Positions 40,136-51,385 of a DNA stretch of 64,000 bases are shown here, in pieces. Source of the DNA: Chloroflexaceae bacterium (GTDB lineage: Bacteria; Chloroflexota; Chloroflexia; Chloroflexales; Chloroflexaceae); assembly GCA_025057155.1 (NCBI GenBank), contig JANWYD010000018.1, positions 1 through 64,000 on the forward strand. Reading direction: 5' to 3'. Every line of letters begins with the position of its first letter. Positions within the stretch are counted from its first letter, which is position 1. The notes beneath the pieces are model-generated. The model worked only from the letters and a program-made list of their open reading frames with translations, did no database searches and was not told the DNA's origin. The translations under genes and the position numbers were made by a program.

Positions 40136-40603
40136 TCAGATTGCCGTAACGACCTGGCAGCGCGGGCAAAGGCCGAAAAGTTCCACCAGGTGCGCGATGA
40201 TGCGGTAACCGGTCTGTTGTTCCAGATTCTGGACGAGGGCCTGCATCCCGCAATCGTCGAAGCGCACCATGTCGCCGCAATGGGTGCAGAGCAGATGGTG
40301 ACTGTGACCGGACCCCAGCGTGTAGCGGTGGCACTCATCCAGCCCGTGGATGCGCTGAATCAACCCCAGTTCCACCAGCAGACGCACGGTGCGGAAGATG
40401 CTGGCAATGCCCGGTGACTCGCCCCGGGCAATCAGCCACTGCTCAAGCTCGTGCACGCTAAAGGCGCCGCGGTGGGCCACGATCGCCTTGAGCACCGCCA
40501 GTCGCGGCCCCGTGACCTTGTAGCCCGCCTCGGCAAGCTGCTCGGCCAGATCGGTAACGGCCGGGGGCAGGATATCACGGCGCGCATCCAGGTAACGGCT
40601 CAT
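40136..40603 (-). CDS. Fur-family regulator, probable Zur
   Basis: 155 residues. Winged-helix N-terminus (YKVTGPRLAVLKAIVAHRGAFSVHELEQW) followed by the metal-sensing half: HSHHLLCTHCGDMVRFDD with the CxxC zinc site, and a second CPRC at the C-terminus (FGLCPRCQ). Divergent from, and next to, a zinc-ribbon gene, a CobW-like GTPase and znuABC, so a zinc-uptake repressor role is the best inference. The ATG at 40603 has GGGAGA upstream. The intervening region holds a 7-5-7 inverted repeat. Confidence 0.88.
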   Translation of the reverse strand: MSRYLDARRDILPPAVTDLAEQLAEAGYKVTGPRLAVLKAIVAHRGAFSVHELEQWLIARGESPGIASIFRTVRLLVELGLIQRIHGLDECHRYTLGSGHSHHLLCTHCGDMVRFDDCGMQALVQNLEQQTGYRIIAHLVELFGLCPRCQVVTAI

Positions 40604-40796
40604 AGACTGCTCTCCCCTCTGGCGACGGCCTTCGCCGTCAGCTTTCTGATTGTACCATGGCCCGCTGGCGCCCGTTGGGACCGCTGCTGCAGCTCTCCCG
40701 AAGGCGGTTAGTTCAGCAGTGTGGACGCCTGCGCCGCCAACACCTCTGAACCAACCGGGATCTGGAGCCTGGTCTGGGGACTTCGTAATAAACATT

Positions 40797-40867
40797 AATG
40801 ATAGTGCATATCATTCTTGACATCAACCCTTCCTAATGATAGACTGTTCCATTAGAGATATGGTATC
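40797..40867. promoter_or_regulatory. Zur-type operator and promoter of the zinc locus
   Basis: AATGATA-GTGCA-TATCATT (40797-40815) is a perfect inverted repeat abutting TTGACA (40817-40822). A -10 TAGACT (40840-40845) follows at 17 bases. CTAATG-N11-CATTAG (40833-40855) spans the -10 box and GATATGGTATC (40857-40867) follows. The arrangement suggests repressor binding over the promoter of the gene at 40899, and possibly autoregulation of the divergent regulator. Confidence 0.75.
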
Positions 40868-40898
40868 ATCTGCAAAAGATGAATGGCAAGGATCATTG

Positions 40899-41138
40899 AT
40901 GCCCCTGTACGTATATTCCTGCCCCGAGTGCGAGATTGAGCTGGAAGAATTGCGCCCGGCCTGGCGCGCCGACGATCCGGTGGAGTGTCCGGTGTGTCAC
41001 GGGCTGTGCGTGCGCGAGCTGCCTTCGTTTACGGTACGATCGCGCGCCGCCGCGGCGCCGATCTATGCGTCGCCTCAGCACGTGGCGCGGGTAATGCATG
41101 GCTCTGGCTGCCCCTGTTGTCGTCCGCGCCGTCGCTGA
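40899..41138 (+). CDS. FmdB-like zinc-ribbon protein
   Basis: 79 residues. PLYVYSCPECEIELEEL and VECPVCHG give the two CxxC knuckles of the FmdB/CxxC_CXXC_SSSS regulatory-type ribbon; a third Cys group (GCPCC) near the C-terminus adds metal-binding capacity. Start at ATG 40899 after AAGGAT, directly below the predicted Zur-controlled promoter. May be a zinc chaperone or sensor for the locus, but the function is not established. Confidence 0.75.
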   Translation: MPLYVYSCPECEIELEELRPAWRADDPVECPVCHGLCVRELPSFTVRSRAAAAPIYASPQHVARVMHGSGCPCCRPRRR

Positions 41139-41202
41139 GGGCCTGTGAGATCATCCGGCGCAATCCGCCAGGTTGCGCCTCAAGCCTGGAGAGGAACGCA
41201 AA

Positions 41203-42255
41203 GTGCTGGAAACTCCCCCTCAACCGGTTCCCCTGACCATCCTGACCGGCTTTCTCGGCGCCGGGAAGACCACCCTGCTCAACCGCATTCTGCACGCCGA
41301 CCATGGCCTGCGTGTGGCCGTTCTGGTCAATGACTTCGGGACGGTCAATATTGATACGCAACTGGTCGTCGGCGTAGAGGGCGAGGCGATCTCCCTGGCC
41401 AACGGGTGCATCTGCTGCACCATTCGCGGCGATCTGTTAAATACCGCGGTCGAGTTGCTTAAACGGCCCGACCCCCCGGAGTACCTGCTCATCGAGACCA
41501 GCGGGGTGAGCGATCCCTGGGCGGTGGTCGAGACCTTTGAGATGCCGGAGTTGCGCCCGTACTTCAACCTTGACAGCGTGATTACCGTAGTTGACGCCGA
41601 GTATGCCCTCCAGCAACGACATTATGAGGACCTGATCGTTGACCAGGTCAGCGCCGCGGATATCGTGGTGCTCAGCAAGGTAGACCTGGTCACCGCGGAG
41701 CAGCGCGCCGAGGTGGAGGCGTGGGTGCGGCGGATCGTCCCCCGGGCGCGCATTCTTCCTGCGGTGTATGGCGATGTGCCCTTGAACCTGCTGCTCAACG
41801 TGGGGCGTTATACGCTGGATATACCGCTCGCCCGGTCCCACGAGCACCACGATCATCACGAGCATGGCGAGCGCTGCGACCACGACCACCACCACGATCA
41901 CAGCAAGGACTTCGACACCTGGGCCTATATCAGCGACCGGCCGTTTGCCCTCAAACCGTTGCGCGACGTGGTGCTGAACCTTCCTCTGGGTATTTTTCGC
42001 GCCAAGGGTCTGATTTACCTCGCCGAAGTTCCCCAACGCCGCGCCGTTCTCCAGGCTGTAGGCCACCGCGTTACGGTTGCGCTGACCGAGCCCTGGGGCG
42101 AGGCGACGCCGCGGACCCAGCTTGTCTTTCTAAGCACGCCGGGTGATCTGGATACGGCTGCGCTCCAGGCAGCCTTCGACGCATGTCTGGCCGACGTGTC
42201 TGCCGAGGCCGAGGTTGCCGCGCAGCACACCTGGTACCGGGGCGCGACGGCGTGA
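41203..42255 (+). CDS. COG0523 GTPase (CobW/ZigA-like metallochaperone)
   Basis: 350 residues. G1 P-loop GFLGAGKTTLLN, the metal-binding CxCC in NGCICCTIRGDL, an ETSGVSDP switch, and SKVDL as the guanine-specificity motif. A His/Asp-rich loop of about 22 residues (HEHHDHHEHG and DHDHHHDHS, residues 213-235) precedes the CobW C-terminal domain. Under zinc limitation such GTPases deliver zinc to target enzymes. The GTG at 41203 is chosen because GAGAGGAA lies six bases upstream; the TTG at 41173 is an alternative. Its stop overlaps the next Fur-family gene (GTGA). Confidence 0.9.
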   Translation: MLETPPQPVPLTILTGFLGAGKTTLLNRILHADHGLRVAVLVNDFGTVNIDTQLVVGVEGEAISLANGCICCTIRGDLLNTAVELLKRPDPPEYLLIETSGVSDPWAVVETFEMPELRPYFNLDSVITVVDAEYALQQRHYEDLIVDQVSAADIVVLSKVDLVTAEQRAEVEAWVRRIVPRARILPAVYGDVPLNLLLNVGRYTLDIPLARSHEHHDHHEHGERCDHDHHHDHSKDFDTWAYISDRPFALKPLRDVVLNLPLGIFRAKGLIYLAEVPQRRAVLQAVGHRVTVALTEPWGEATPRTQLVFLSTPGDLDTAALQAAFDACLADVSAEAEVAAQHTWYRGATA

Positions 42256-42701
42256 ACGAGGTCGCGGTCGAAGTTCGCGTCGGCGACTGGGGCGAGCGCG
42301 TGCTGGCCGCGCTGCGCAGCGAGGGGCATCGTCTGACCGGGCCGCGTCTGGCGATTATCCACCAGGTCGCCTCCCAGGAGCGGCCATTCAGCGCCGAGGC
42401 CCTCGCCGCGACCCTGGCGCCCGCCGTCGGGCGAGCCACCGTGTACCGGGCCGTAGACTGGCTCCGGCAGCGGGGGTGGCTGGCGCGCGTGCAGACCGAG
42501 CGGGGCGACTACACCTATGTTCGCACTCTGCCCGGACACCATCACCACGCCGTTTGCCTCCGCTGCGGCGCCACGCTGCTGGTCGAGGGCTGTCAGGCCA
42601 TTGAAGCCCTGACGGCGCTGCTGGCGCGTCAGGGCTTTCGTGTGCAGGGGCACATTCTGGAACTGTTTGGTCTGTGCGCTCGTTGCCAGGGGTCCAGGTA
42701 A
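42252..42701 (+). CDS. Second Fur-family regulator
   Basis: 149 residues. Winged helix GHRLTGPRLAIIHQVASQERP, recognition region VGRATVYRAVDWL, then GHHHHAVCLRCGATLLVEGC (CxxC and His metal site) and a C-terminal CARC. Translationally coupled to the COG0523 GTPase by a GTGA overlap. Distinct from the Fur-family protein at 40136, so this locus encodes two paralogous metal sensors. Metal identity is inferred as zinc from context only. Confidence 0.88.
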   Translation: MNEVAVEVRVGDWGERVLAALRSEGHRLTGPRLAIIHQVASQERPFSAEALAATLAPAVGRATVYRAVDWLRQRGWLARVQTERGDYTYVRTLPGHHHHAVCLRCGATLLVEGCQAIEALTALLARQGFRVQGHILELFGLCARCQGSR

Positions 42702-42852: not shown

Positions 42853-44289
42853 ATGAACCAGCGACGACTGGAGCGCCTCGCGGCGCCCCTGCTGATGACC
42901 GTTCTCAGCCTGCTCCTGGCAGCCTGCGGCGGCGGGGCGGCCACGCCGCCCACGGCCCCGCCGGCGGCTCCTACCGCCGCTCCGGCTCCGCAGCCTACCG
43001 AGGCAACCGCCGCTGCGCAGCCAACCACAGCTCCCGCTCCAGATGCTCAGCCCTTGAAGGTAGTGGCAACCTTCAGCATCCTTGGCGACTTTGTGCAGCA
43101 AGTCGCCGGCGATCGCGTAGCGCTGACCACCCTGGTCGGCCCCGGCAGTGACGCTCACACCTACGAACCAACCCCTCGCGACAGCGCTGCGCTGGCCCAG
43201 GCCGACATCCTCTTCGAGAATGGCCTGGAGTTCGAGGGGTGGCTCGACAGGCTTTACGCCGCCTCGGGATCCAGAGCGCAACGGGTAGTGGTGAGCGAAC
43301 GCATCACCCCGCTCCCCGCCTCGGAGATGGCTCACGAGCACGACCATGCCCTGGAGCACGCCTGCGAGCACTTCGGCGATCCGCCCAGGGCAGTGACGGC
43401 GGGCGCCGGCGCCGCCATTCCGGACGACCACACCCACTATCAGATCGCGTTGAGCGGGGGCGCGGGTGATGTCGCCCTGGCGCGGGCTGAAGAGGGTGAG
43501 GTGACATTCTACCTCGGGGCGGATGTGCCCTTTGCTGTCCTGTCCGGCGCCACGCCCCTCACGCCTGAAAGGACAAAAAAGGTTGGCGATGCATGCGCCG
43601 CGATCGCCATCGCCTATATCTACGACCTTGCGCCTGGCGACTATACGGTCCGCTTTGGTCCCGGCGCAGGCGAGGGGGTGGCGCTGGTGTGGGAGCTTGC
43701 CGGCGAACATACGCACGGCGGGGAAGAGAAGGACGCCCACGGCCACAGCCATGGGGAGTATGATCCTCACGTCTGGCAGGACCCGAACAACGCCATGCTC
43801 ATGGTGGAGGCCATCCGCGATGCGCTGGCGGCTGCCGATCCGGCCAACGCCGCGACCTATGCGGCCAACGCCGCCAGCTATCTGGCCAAACTCAAAGAAC
43901 TGGACGCCTTCATCCAGCAGGCAGTGCAGCGACTGCCCGAAGAGCGGCGCAAGCTCGTTACCAACCATGACACCTTCGGCTACTTCGCCTATCGCTACGG
44001 TTTCACAGTTATCGGCGCCGCACTGGGCACGACGACCGAGCAGGCCGATCCCTCGGCCGGCGAGATCGCCCGCCTGGTCGAAGACATTCGCGCCTCAGGC
44101 GTGCCGGCGATCTTCGTCGAGAACGTCAGCAATCCGGCGCTGATGGAGAACATCGCCCGCGAGGCGGGGGTGAACGTGGCCCCGCCGCTCTACACCGACG
44201 CTCTCGGGAAGCCGGGCAGCGAAGGTGAGACCTATTTGAAGATGATGCGCTACAATGTTACAACCATTGTCGAAGCGCTGGCGGTGTGA
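42853..44289 (+). CDS. znuA: Zinc ABC transporter substrate-binding lipoprotein with inserted domain
   Basis: 478 residues; lipobox LLAAC with the acylated Cys at 25, then a Pro/Ala/Thr linker to about residue 65. The cluster A-I (ZnuA/TroA) fold begins at [15 protein letters not shown], with [13 protein letters not shown] supplying the first His ligand, [14 protein letters not shown] another His, and a C-terminal Asp-type ligand region. Between about residues 158 and 300, where ZnuA normally has only a His-rich loop, a His cluster (HEHDHALEH), a beta-rich module of about 100 residues ([25 protein letters not shown]) and a second His cluster ([17 protein letters not shown]) are inserted. Length is therefore well above the usual 300. 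Confidence 0.9.
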
Positions 44290-44435: not shown

Positions 44436-44577
44436 ATACTCTGTGAACGAAGTTTTTCGATAACTCTGCCCCCTCCCCAACCCTCCCCCGCTGGGGGAGG
44501 GAGTCCGGCTCCTCCCCCCAACGGGGGGAGGTCGGGAGGGGGGCGGAAATGTAAGGAAACTTCGTTCACAGACTATG
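44436..44577 (-). repeat. MITE-like element, copy in znuA-znuC gap
   Basis: Terminal repeats ATACTCTGTGAACGAAGTTT and AAACTTCGTTCACAGACTAT enclose a GC-rich core; the arms are those of the copy at 5089 in the opposite orientation. The right end abuts the possible GTG start of znuC (44577). The rest of the 44290-44597 gap includes GGAGGTGTGGAGGTGTGG repeats. Confidence 0.8.
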
Positions 44578-44597
44578 TGATCCACCTACGAAAAGCC

Positions 44598-45335
44598 ATG
44601 AACCTTTTCTACGGTCATCGCCGTTACGCGGAAATGGTCCCCAACGCCCCGGCGCTGGCGATTGACCGATTGACGGTGGGCTACCCGGGATCGTCGCAGC
44701 CGGCGCTGCGCGAGGCGAGCCTGATATTGCCGCCGGGTGTGCGCGCCGCCCTGATCGGGCCGAACGGCTCTGGCAAGTCAACCCTGCTGAAAGCCGTGGC
44801 GGGGCTGTTGCCGCCGCGCTCAGGGACAATCCTGATCTACGGGCGGCCTCCGTCCGCCTGCCACCACCGAGTGGCCTACCTGCCCCAGCGCGGCGATGTG
44901 GACTGGCGCTTTCCCGTGACGGTGGAGCGCATGGTGCTGGCGGGGCGGTACGTGCACCTGGGCTGGCTGCGGCGCCCCGGCGCCGAGGACCGGGAGCGGG
45001 TGCAGGCCGTGCTGCTCAAGCTGGGCCTGGAGCAATGCGCCCGGCGCCAGATCAGCCAGCTCTCGGGCGGGCAACAGCAACGGGCGCTGCTGGCCCGCGC
45101 CCTGGTGCAGGAGGCCGACCTGCTGCTGCTCGATGAGCCGCTGAGCGCGGTTGACGCCGCCAGCCGGCGCATCATTGACGAGGCGCTTGATGAATTACGG
45201 AACCAGGGCAAGACCATTCTGATGGCCACCCACCATCTGGAGCGGATTGACGAGGAGTTTGATCTGGCCTTCGCCCTGGACGACGGCGTCCTCCGCCCGG
45301 TCGCCCGGCAATTGCCTACCCTGGAGGGCGTATGA
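44598..45335 (+). CDS. znuC: Zinc ABC transporter ATPase
   Basis: Energises ZnuB. Walker A GPNGSGKSTLL, Q-loop in VAYLPQRGDVDWRFP, signature LSGGQQQRALLARAL, Walker B LLLLDEPLSAVD and switch His in MATHHLERID. The DWRFP sequence after the Q-loop is common in manganese/zinc transporter ATPases. The start is uncertain: ATG 44598, GTG 44577 (touching the MITE-like element) or ATG 44634 all lack a strong Shine-Dalgarno, so the insertion may have displaced the original signal. The stop overlaps znuB (ATGA). Confidence 0.92.
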   Translation: MNLFYGHRRYAEMVPNAPALAIDRLTVGYPGSSQPALREASLILPPGVRAALIGPNGSGKSTLLKAVAGLLPPRSGTILIYGRPPSACHHRVAYLPQRGDVDWRFPVTVERMVLAGRYVHLGWLRRPGAEDRERVQAVLLKLGLEQCARRQISQLSGGQQQRALLARALVQEADLLLLDEPLSAVDAASRRIIDEALDELRNQGKTILMATHHLERIDEEFDLAFALDDGVLRPVARQLPTLEGV

Positions 45336-46159
45336 TTGAGTGGCTGCTTGAACCGTTCCGTTTTACCTTCATGCAAACCGGTCTCGCCGCCGCGATCCTG
45401 GCGGGCGTCACCTGCGCGGCCCTGGGGGCCTACGTGGTGCTGCGCCGCATGGCCTTCATCGGCGACGCGCTGGCGCACACCGTGCTGCCGGGGCTGGTGG
45501 CGGCCTATCTGGGCGGCTGGAGCCTGTTCGGCGGCGCGCTGGCCGCCGGGCTGCTTACTGCCCTGGGCATCGGCTGGGTCTCGCGGCGGGGGGCGGTGCG
45601 CGAAGATACCGCCATTGGCGTGTTCTTCACGGCCATGTTCGCCCTGGGCATCCTGCTGATGAGCCGGGTGCGCTCCTTCCGCGACCTGAGCCACATCCTC
45701 TTCGGGAACGTCCTGGGCGTGCAAAGGGCGGATCTCGCGCAGATGGCGGCCATCGCCGCCGGCGTGTTGCTAACGCTCTTTCTCTTGCACAAGGAACTGG
45801 AGTTGACCAGCTACGACCCGACCTACGCCGAAGTGATCGGCCTGAGCGCCGACCGGGTGCGTATGGTGCTGCTGGTGCTGCTGGCCTTCACCGTCGTGGC
45901 CTGCATCCAGATCGTCGGCGTCATTCTCACCTCGGCGATGCTGGTAACCCCGGCGGCGGCGGCGGCGTTGCTCACCAACCGCCTGCCGCGGATGATGGGG
46001 CTGGCTTCCCTCATCGCCGTGGCCTCCGCGCTGATCGGCCTCTACGCCTCGTACTATGCCGATGTAGCCTCGGGGGCGGCGATTGTGCTGACCTGCACGG
46101 CGTTCTTCGGCGCGGCCTGGCTGATCCACGTACTGCGGACGCGCAGCGCAGCGGGATGA
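45332..46159 (+). CDS. znuB: Zinc ABC transporter permease
   Basis: 275 residues with about eight membrane helices; ABC-3 family. Recognised from GAYVVLRRMAFIGDALAHTVLPG near the N-terminus (read as VVLRRMAFIGDALAH) and the coupling region GNVLGV, then IQIVGVILTSAMLVTPAAAA. Translationally coupled to znuC through ATGA. Manganese transport is possible by homology, but the zinc-locus context favours zinc. Confidence 0.93.
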   Translation: MIEWLLEPFRFTFMQTGLAAAILAGVTCAALGAYVVLRRMAFIGDALAHTVLPGLVAAYLGGWSLFGGALAAGLLTALGIGWVSRRGAVREDTAIGVFFTAMFALGILLMSRVRSFRDLSHILFGNVLGVQRADLAQMAAIAAGVLLTLFLLHKELELTSYDPTYAEVIGLSADRVRMVLLVLLAFTVVACIQIVGVILTSAMLVTPAAAAALLTNRLPRMMGLASLIAVASALIGLYASYYADVASGAAIVLTCTAFFGAAWLIHVLRTRSAAG

Positions 46160-48830: not shown

Positions 48831-50518
48831 TTATCGCGGGACACAGTAGTATTCGCCCAGGTCGTGCACTTCGCCGTTTTCGACGGTAACCGTAACGGTC
48901 TTGCTGCCGCAACGGGCGCTCACGGTGATGCTATAGCTTCCCGGCAGTACCTCGATGGATCGAGACTGACCATTGGGAACGTCATAGCGGCCACCGGTCG
49001 GCCCGCGCAGGGTGATGGTCAGGACGCCGCCAGTTTTGTTCGTTACCTCGATTACCGCCGTCTGGCGCACGCAGGTATAGGTCAACGTGTAGGTCTCCCC
49101 GTCTGCGACGGCAAAGCGTCGCGACTCGCGGCCACAGGCGCTGTCAACGGTCACCTCGTACTCTCCGGGCATCACTTGCCGGCTGACAGTCTGCCCGCCG
49201 GGGACGGTAAAGCTCTCGGATGTTGGCCCCACCAGGTTGACCCGGATCGGTTCGTTGCTGGTATTAGAGATGCTGACGGTCGAGGTTCGTCCCGGGCATT
49301 GGAGCGTAAGCTCGCGCACTTCATTCGCGGCCAGCGAAAAACTGACAGCTACGCTACCGCAGGGCGCCGTGGCGGTGCCGCGATAGTCGCCGGGTCGCAC
49401 CCTGCCCGTCTGCCGTCCGCCGCTGCCCACCACGAGATTGAGCGCCGTCGGGCCGGTCAGCGCCAGGCGAGCAGTACCGCCCGTCTGGTTCACCAGCCGC
49501 ACCTCGGCGGTGTCCTCCTGGGCGCAGGTGATCGACAACTCCACGGTCTTACCGGCCCCGACGCTGAAGTTGGTCGTGGAAGTTCCGCACCATGCGGTTA
49601 CAACCGCCTGGTAGCCTCCGGGCGCAATGACGGCATCGAAAACGTCGCGGACCACGGACCACGCCGTGGCGGTGGGCCCGGCCAGGCTTACACGGACGGG
49701 TTGGCCCGTATTGTTCATGATCTTCAACGCCGCCTGTGCGGGGATGGGGGCCGGCGCGGCGCCGTCGTAGGCATCGATGCGTGGACCTGCCGGAAAAGGC
49801 GGGGGTGGCGGAGCACCGCCGGGTTGCTCCGGCGGCGGCGGCACGTATGACGGCGGTTGCCTGGGATAGAGCGCCGAGCCGAGCAGCCCGAGAAGCACAT
49901 CGAAGGGCCGGGCGTTTTCGGGATGTAGTTCGAAGCGCGCCCGCTCGAACCACTGCACCGTATACTGCCGGCCGTCTTCAAGGGTCTCGGTCTGCGCGTC
50001 GCTCAGGGGCAAGCCGAAGAGGGCCAGGTTTTCGGCCTCGCTGAAGCCGGGTATGCCATCTAACTCGAGCCCGTTGGCGCGCCAGGCCTCCAGGATCCGG
50101 CCACACACGTTATGGTTGGTTTCAGGGAAGAATCGGCAGCCTGGCTGGGGACTGCTGGCAGGAAAGCTACGCCAGTCGCGCTGATCCATCCCGAGACGAT
50201 CTTCGCTCAGCCGTCCAGGAGAACATTGTATGGCGGCTGATTCTCCGGGTGTAGCTCGATCCGGTTGCGTTCGAACCATTGCGCCTGAATGCGTTTGCCC
50301 TCGATGAACTCTTCTTGTTGCGGCCCGAGCGGGAAGCCGAAGACGGCCAGCCCGCCGTTGCGCTCCCAGAATTGCCGGATGGGCCCGCTGATGCAGTGCC
50401 CGGTTTCCGGAAAGCAGCGCTCGGAGTCCTGGGCGCTCACGGCGCCGTTGCCCGGAATGAGGAGCGCGCCGAGGATCAGGAAGATCAAACTGACCAGGCT
50501 CAATCTGCTTAGACGCAT
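48831..50518 (-). pseudogene. Secreted PETGH-repeat / Ig-like repeat protein, split by a one-base deletion
   Basis: The signal peptide and first repeat (MRLSRLSLVSLIFLILG... to PPYNVLLDG, stop) are in one frame from 50518, with GGAGGGAG upstream. After 50215 the second frame carries the second repeat (FFPETNHNVCGRILEAW...ERARFELHPENARPF). Adding one G in the run at 50215 restores VLLGRLSEDRLG, matching the consensus in the GH99-like protein. A Pro-rich linker and four repeats of about 80 residues follow (each with ..NxTG.P..V.L.GPT, a PG-Y turn and a Cys), resembling PEGA- or Ig-like modules. Real pseudogene or sequencing error. Confidence 0.75.
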
Positions 50519-51385
50519 GGCTCCCTCCTTGATGAGCGTTCGTCGTTGAAAGCCTGCAAACAGGATGGGCGTTTTGATTCAATAAACGCGCTGAGGTCAG
50601 ATCTTGGCGCGCCCGGATGGTGGATCCGCCACCGATCGCCTGATAGAGAAATTCAGCAACTGTTTTTTTACGTCCCTGCTTGAGTATACTTCTCTGAGAA
50701 GTCTATGTGCCAACAGGATGTCCTGATCATCCCGTAAGGCAACTTCTGGACAAGCCCATAGCCATACTAAATAGGTAAGAAAACGACACTTTTTTCTTTT
50801 CTTTATATGCCAAGTATTTCATACAGGTAAAGTTGCTAAATTAACACTTAAATGATTCAGTCTTACTGATGTCCTGGCGTATAACGGCAGACGCCGCCAG
50901 CGCGGAGCGACGCGGCTCAGCGGGCGCAGCGGGCAATCGGTCGCCCGGCGCCGCTCGGCGATTGCACCACCGCTTCCGCGCCATCCGTCTGTTTCCACGC
51001 GCCTGGCTGCAGTCTGGCTACACGGGCGGTATGCGGCTCGCTCCACCTCGCTGGCGTTGGGCCCCGGCAACTGGCAGGCGCCGGGTGTGTTCGCCCCGCC
51101 GGCGCGACGGTTTTCGCGATGGCAGCACTTCCTTCGTTTTCCGTACGTGTTCAGAGTCGGGGCAACCCCGCGGACCTGGGAGCGAGGGCGTCCCGCCCTC
51201 GTCAGGATTCGAGGGCATCTTGCCCTCGCTCCCAGGAGAAGTGTGGACACGCACCTTTTTCCCTTGTTCCCGGCGCGGGTGTCGCCGTGAATGGCCTCAT
51301 CGTAGTGACGGTTGCAGGTAGGAGTCGAAGGGGGAAGCCCCCGCGATCCTGGCGCCGGGCGAGCTACCCTGCTATGGCCCGCTGG
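50519..51385. other. 867-base non-coding stretch
   Basis: No convincing gene. 50600-50870 is clearly AT-richer than the surroundings and includes the perfect palindrome ACTTCTCTGAGAAGT (50688-50702). From 50880 GC-rich sequence resumes, with low-complexity ORFs on both strands that have no protein character. Confidence 0.5.
51175..51236. repeat. 62-base palindromic repeat, copy 1
   Basis: CCTGGGAGCGAGGGC at one end and GCCCTCGCTCCCAGG at the other, with nested GAGGGCGTCCCGCCCTC and GAGGGCATCTTGCCCTC hairpins. Its reverse complement matches 54664-54725 closely. Confidence 0.8.

Follow-up and report, generated by a model that had tools for sequence, protein, structure and literature searches.

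A predicted PPC-like beta-sandwich inserted in the histidine-rich loop of ZnuA/AztC-type zinc-binding proteins, with evidence for movement apart from its host gene

Results and discussion

Computational analysis of the window (the whole 64,000-nucleotide stretch of Chloroflexaceae DNA) revealed that the substrate-binding protein (SBP) of an Azt-like zinc transport operon carries a module of about 113 residues within its His-rich loop. The module is predicted to fold as a beta-sandwich, was found at this one position of zinc SBPs wherever its host protein was read, and has moved apart from the genes that host it. Zinc SBPs with accessory domains and the PPC fold are already known; new here is the combination of the domain, its position in the His loop, and its mobility, and no description of the module was found among the papers searched. 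The way in which zinc SBPs acquire zinc when it is scarce is not yet settled, nor is the purpose of their His loops.

Host protein and operon context

The N-terminus of the host protein showed a lipoprotein signal (lipobox LAAC, Cys25), followed by a Pro/Ala/Thr linker and then a zinc-type SBP. Pfam ZnuA matched the 478-residue protein with 315.9 bits (cut-off 29) in two stretches split by the insert. AztC was the top-scoring NCBIfam model (312.5 bits, under the cut-off of 350), and the downstream ATPase and permease likewise scored best with AztA and AztB, though none of the three reached its equivalog cut-off (Table 1). The predicted scaffold showed the two-lobed SBP fold and resembled Paracoccus AztC (Z 36.8, rmsd 1.9, 45% identity) and ZnuA 1pq4 (Z 30.3). 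For the metal site of three His and one acidic residue, H102, H306, and H372 were conserved and D449 nearly so (Gly in L059, the copy from Acidimicrobiia). By its Pfam domain, predicted fold, and site residues, the protein is a cluster A-I zinc SBP, for which zinc binding and uptake are predicted, and the best explanation is that it serves a Zur-type, Azt-like zinc ABC importer as its substrate-binding lipoprotein.

Between 40.1 and 47.0 kb, the gene order was a divergent Fur-family gene (minus strand) followed by genes for an FmdB zinc ribbon, a CobW GTPase, a Fur-family protein, the SBP, an ATPase, and a permease. A cytochrome c gene was also identified there, and none of the genes identified in this region encodes an AztD chaperone. 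In relatives, a homologue of the divergent Fur-family gene directly adjoins the gene of the module-bearing ZnuA. The CobW-family GTPase has a long His-rich stretch of its own (HEHHDHHEHGERCDHDHHHDHS), and its gene overlaps the start of the next Fur-family gene. In addition, a second cluster A-I SBP (L108, on contig C3 of the same genome, G000) has neither module nor His loop and is accompanied by its own ATPase and two permease-like genes; this system is probably of the manganese type.

Table 1. Coordinates of the host gene, its insert, and the neighbouring features in the window
Feature	Position	Strand	Basis
Divergent Fur-family regulator, putative Zur	40136..40795	-	Pfam FUR; synteny
Perfect palindrome AATGATA-N5-TATCATT, putative Zur operator	40797..40815	.	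Core pattern; conserved in relatives
Second, weaker palindrome copy, 38 bp on	40835..40853	.	38-bp spacing also in relatives
FmdB-family zinc-ribbon protein, first gene of the operon	40836..41138	+	TIGR02605 above cut-off
CobW-family GTPase, zinc metallochaperone type	41173..42255	+	Pfam cobW and CobW_C; NCBIfam CobW 201.5 bits and ZigA 192.6 bits, both under cut-off
Fur-family regulator, putative Zur, directly upstream of the SBP gene	42183..42701	+	Pfam FUR
ZnuA/AztC-type zinc ABC transporter substrate-binding lipoprotein, 478 aa	42853..44289	+	Pfam ZnuA, NCBIfam AztC, scaffold fold, residue positions
First His cluster, residues 159-165, MAHEHDH (H161/H163/H165)	43327..43347	+	
Inserted module, conserved core ~residues 169-281, ~113 residues (HACEHF ... 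PDDHTHY ... C248 ... LVWE)	43357..43695	+	Alignments A4/A5; AlphaFold2
Second His cluster, residues 286-300 (H286/H288/H296/H298/H300)	43708..43752	+	
ZnuC/AztA-like ATPase	44577..45335	+	Pfam ABC_tran; top NCBIfam AztA 207.9 bits, cut-off 220
ZnuB/AztB-like permease	45332..46159	+	Pfam ABC-3; top NCBIfam AztB 225.4 bits, cut-off 280

Predicted fold and sequence family of the module

The first-pass annotation had described a His cluster, a beta-rich domain, and a second His cluster in the loop of a ZnuA protein. This architecture was borne out: the open reading frame lies where it had been placed, the Pfam ZnuA match is interrupted at the insert, and AlphaFold2 predicted a separate, confidently modelled beta-rich domain. 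The module is conserved in 14 sequences besides that of the window, its GC3 is similar to that of the remaining gene and even along it, and its predicted fold is confident, so it is neither a chance product nor the result of a frameshift. An assembly artefact was also rejected, because the module is present in independent MAGs and in named draft genomes, GC3 is even, and the scaffold of L059 is Acidimicrobiia-like.

The same annotation had called for a structure prediction of the insert and a profile search with the module alone. From a 14-sequence alignment of the window and genome-locus sequences (segment 43339-43716), AlphaFold2 modelled the isolated module with a mean pLDDT of 92.6 and a pTM of 0.87, as one short N-terminal helix and a beta-sandwich of about nine strands, and a disordered low-complexity insert was rejected on the strength of this prediction. 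The full-length model showed the same domain, again folded with confidence, joined to the scaffold by low-confidence flexible linkers. The insert matched nothing in Pfam and NCBIfam at E <= 10, and the module matched no PDB sequence; across the three databases, single-sequence and profile searches alike gave chance-level matches only, by which a known sequence family was rejected. At the level of the whole protein, ZnuA alone matched and ZinT was not found (Pfam, E <= 10).

By structure, the top PDB matches of the module in Foldseek were the collagen-binding domains (CBD) of ColG collagenase (E 9.2e-06). VIA-align 2 superposed the model on the ColG CBD 5iku with Z 10.8 and an rmsd of 2.9 over 102 residues, on 1nqd with Z 10.3, and on a Bacillus PPC domain with Z 8.3, and CBM6 and CBM_E1 carbohydrate-binding modules ranked lower. 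The module thus resembles the PPC (PF04151)/ColG collagen-binding domain in its predicted fold, but it differs in having no Pfam match and in lying within a transporter protein. Collagen and calcium are the ligands for which the PPC fold is best known. The PPC domain PF04151 was found neither in the window module (Pfam, E <= 10) nor among 13 members (E <= 5). In hhalign, comparison with a profile of PPC domains from the same bacterial family gave a probability of 3.7%, with the expected register in the C-terminal half (reversed control, 0.4%), which is below significance and leaves PPC membership by sequence unsupported. The earlier suggestion of a module without a recognised family, as a candidate for a new one, therefore held for the sequence and not for the fold: the sequence family is new because no sequence match was found, yet the fold, as given by the AlphaFold2 model, is a known PPC/CBD beta-sandwich.

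Invariant positions of the module in the 15 sequences include H169, C171, P178, H193, C248, and E281, with H173 nearly invariant; the invariant residues are mostly His, Cys, and acidic, together with a single conserved Trp. Even the diverged copy of genome G425 (22-37% identical) retains the H-A-C-x-H motif along with the second His and the second Cys; their persistence there suggests that these positions are important. C171 and C248 could be either metal ligands or a disulfide.

Distribution and separate movement of the module

The module was detected in 12 of the 41 genomes of the window's Chloroflexaceae-type family and in 13 of the 158 genomes of the class, the additional one being G425, which belongs to another family of the order. 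A sample of 400 genomes of the phylum, with 10 candidates scored per genome, gave no further module genome, and in the class sample of Acidimicrobiia the module occurred in one of 247 genomes. A named-genome scan with two short peptide patterns, which did not return the diverged G425 copy, identified carriers in Candidatus Viridilinea, Chloroploca, Oscillochloris fontis, several Chloroflexales MAGs, and the Acidimicrobiia MAG MO_035.B13 (L059). No convincing relative was found among plasmids and phages, and none in viral contigs. Weak Chloroflexota matches of the single-sequence search (E > 0.002) were discarded, being absent with profiles and, where read, unrelated or out of frame. Further copies, including stand-alone versions, may exist in other phyla.

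Every module copy whose host protein was read lies in a ZnuA loop with His clusters on both sides, and in other proteins of the same genomes the module was not found. Most members of the window's ZnuA type retain it. Genome G313 has two different module-bearing ZnuA genes (L048/L049), one of them with HSEEEAHG-type repeats after the module.

On a scaffold tree built with the loop removed, module carriers appear at three places: the window's group, G425 amid module-less ZnuAs (97/86), and L059. The starred branches of this tree require at least three changes of module state, and the module-less sisters L092 and L103 resemble a nested loss. A constraint placing all carriers together was rejected (p-AU 1.8e-75); a constraint placing L059 with the window's group was also rejected (p 0.008), a result to be read with caution because L059 sits on a long branch. 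Independently of the tree, when compared with Chloroflexales, the module of L059 is 42-54% identical and its scaffold only 33-39%, whereas among Chloroflexales the scaffold is on average better conserved than the module (means of 72% vs 58%). Moreover, L161, the nearest Acidimicrobiia relative of L059 (83% and 85% identical in two scaffold parts), has no module. Thus, the rejection of a single origin, the closer similarity of the L059 module than of its scaffold, and the empty loop of L161 together indicate that the module moves apart from its host gene.

At the module site, L161 has only GHDHGDEE-type His repeats and L092 only DHAHDQEA repeats, and in comparison with the carriers these are matched empty and occupied sites. 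The His-repeat DNA flanking the module is a plausible recombination point. The module is dispensable, since the sister ZnuAs L092 and L103 do without it. A defined, foldable domain in a zinc SBP loop with close module-less relatives (L092/L103 in Chloroflexota; L161, ~84% identical, in Acidimicrobiia) offers matched pairs with and without the domain, and the case indicates that an accessory domain passes between distant bacteria independently of the host gene.

Proposed role of the module

Several zinc systems provide points of comparison. The host protein shares with AztC of the Paracoccus denitrificans AztABCD system the scaffold fold, the H/H/H/D site, a flexible loop at the insertion site, and the nearest relatives of its partners (AztA/AztB). 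In AztC, however, the loop is short and AztD is a separate chaperone, whereas here a whole domain occupies the loop and the operon has no AztD. The AztC loop is required for zinc transfer from AztD (PMC6689063). Streptococcus AdcA is likewise a cluster A-I SBP with a His loop and an extra beta-rich accessory domain, the ZinT domain; this domain and the His loop jointly aid zinc recruitment and uptake under restriction, and zinc passage from ZinT by way of the His loop has been proposed (PMC7858048). In contrast to the PPC-like module within the His loop described here, ZinT lies at the C-terminus, is lipocalin-like, and has a site of three His. ZrgA, a zinc SBP of Vibrio, contains a long stretch rich in His along with a disulfide that is conserved (PMC9820375), but its ferredoxin-like fold is unrelated to cluster A-I SBPs and it has no inserted domain.

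The role that we judge most likely, at close to an even chance, is the collection or transfer of zinc in cis, a function comparable to that of AztD or of the ZinT domain in AdcA, because the module stands at the AztC-type loop, is flanked by His clusters, and belongs to an Azt-like operon without AztD. In such a mechanism, the PPC-like beta-sandwich spliced into the His-rich loop, which in AztC accepts zinc from AztD, would bind zinc through H169, H193, and usually H173, with C171 and C248 as further ligands or as a disulfide. The module and its flanking His clusters would capture scarce zinc on the outer side of the membrane and pass it on to the cleft of H102/H306/H372/D449, and the module would thereby do in cis the job of AztD or of the AdcA ZinT domain. 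Zinc binding, zinc transfer, and AztD replacement by the module are proposed by analogy with these systems, and from the place of the module, its invariant His and Cys residues, the surrounding operon, and the fact that zinc SBPs alone have acquired it repeatedly. Counting against a zinc role are the other usual ligands of the PPC fold, the low His content of the module itself (4 His in 118 residues), and its dispensability in L092 and L103; furthermore, the two invariant Cys of this exported protein may form a simple disulfide. A broader proposal, which we regard as doubtful, is that of a new zinc-binding beta-sandwich family that moves as a cassette via His-repeat DNA into zinc SBP loops across phyla and makes one self-chaperoning protein of the AztD/AztC pair.

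The fold matches could also mean that the module is not a zinc binder but tethers the surface lipoprotein to a matrix polysaccharide, a wall polymer, or a protein, or recruits zinc that such a ligand has bound. We consider this unlikely: its nearest folds are indeed collagen-binding/PPC domains and then CBM6 and CBM_E1, and the cluster A-I SBPs Lmb and Lbp carry laminin-binding names in the PDB, but the invariant residues are of the His, Cys, and acidic kind with one conserved Trp, and the module was found only in zinc SBP loops between His clusters. The low-confidence flexible linkers, and the finding that the flexible loop and Z-loop of AztC govern transfer and dissociation (PMC7463823), would suit a structural or regulatory cap that orders or shields the His loop and tunes access to the cleft, or the way the protein docks with the permease or a further chaperone, again without zinc of its own; such a cap seems rather improbable, as it leaves the invariant H-x-C, second His, and second Cys of very diverged copies unexplained. 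Least probable, and in our view quite unlikely, is a calcium-stabilised spacer from secreted PPC-domain proteins, neutral or nearly so for zinc uptake and spread through His-repeat recombination. The ColG CBD, the nearest fold match, was solved with calcium, His repeats border the site whether or not it holds the module, and L092 and L103 look like a nested loss. Against such a spacer, however, most members of the window's ZnuA type retain the module, its residues are strongly conserved, and other zinc SBPs have acquired it at least twice.

Putative operators and neighbouring features

The core pattern of the perfect palindrome at 40797 occurs as a single copy in the 5.1-Mb genome. The pair of palindromes at 38-bp spacing recurs in L053, L054, L057, L058, and L060, where it separates the divergent Fur gene from the operon or from znuA. 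The twin palindromes and the Fur-family genes are consistent with Zur control, the identity of the regulator being inferred. The twin palindromes were also observed near a second metal SBP in L106 (2363).

The SBP and ATPase genes are separated by an unusually long gap, in which two perfect inverted repeats rich in GC were identified at 44481-44531 (CCCTCCCCC-GCT-GGGGGAGGG and CCTCCCCCC-AAC-GGGGGGAGG); these are possibly an attenuator or a small mobile repeat. Further along the window, the protein encoded at 48831-50582 (minus strand) has about four beta-rich repeats in tandem, which end in motifs that contain Cys, with Pfam matches below threshold only.
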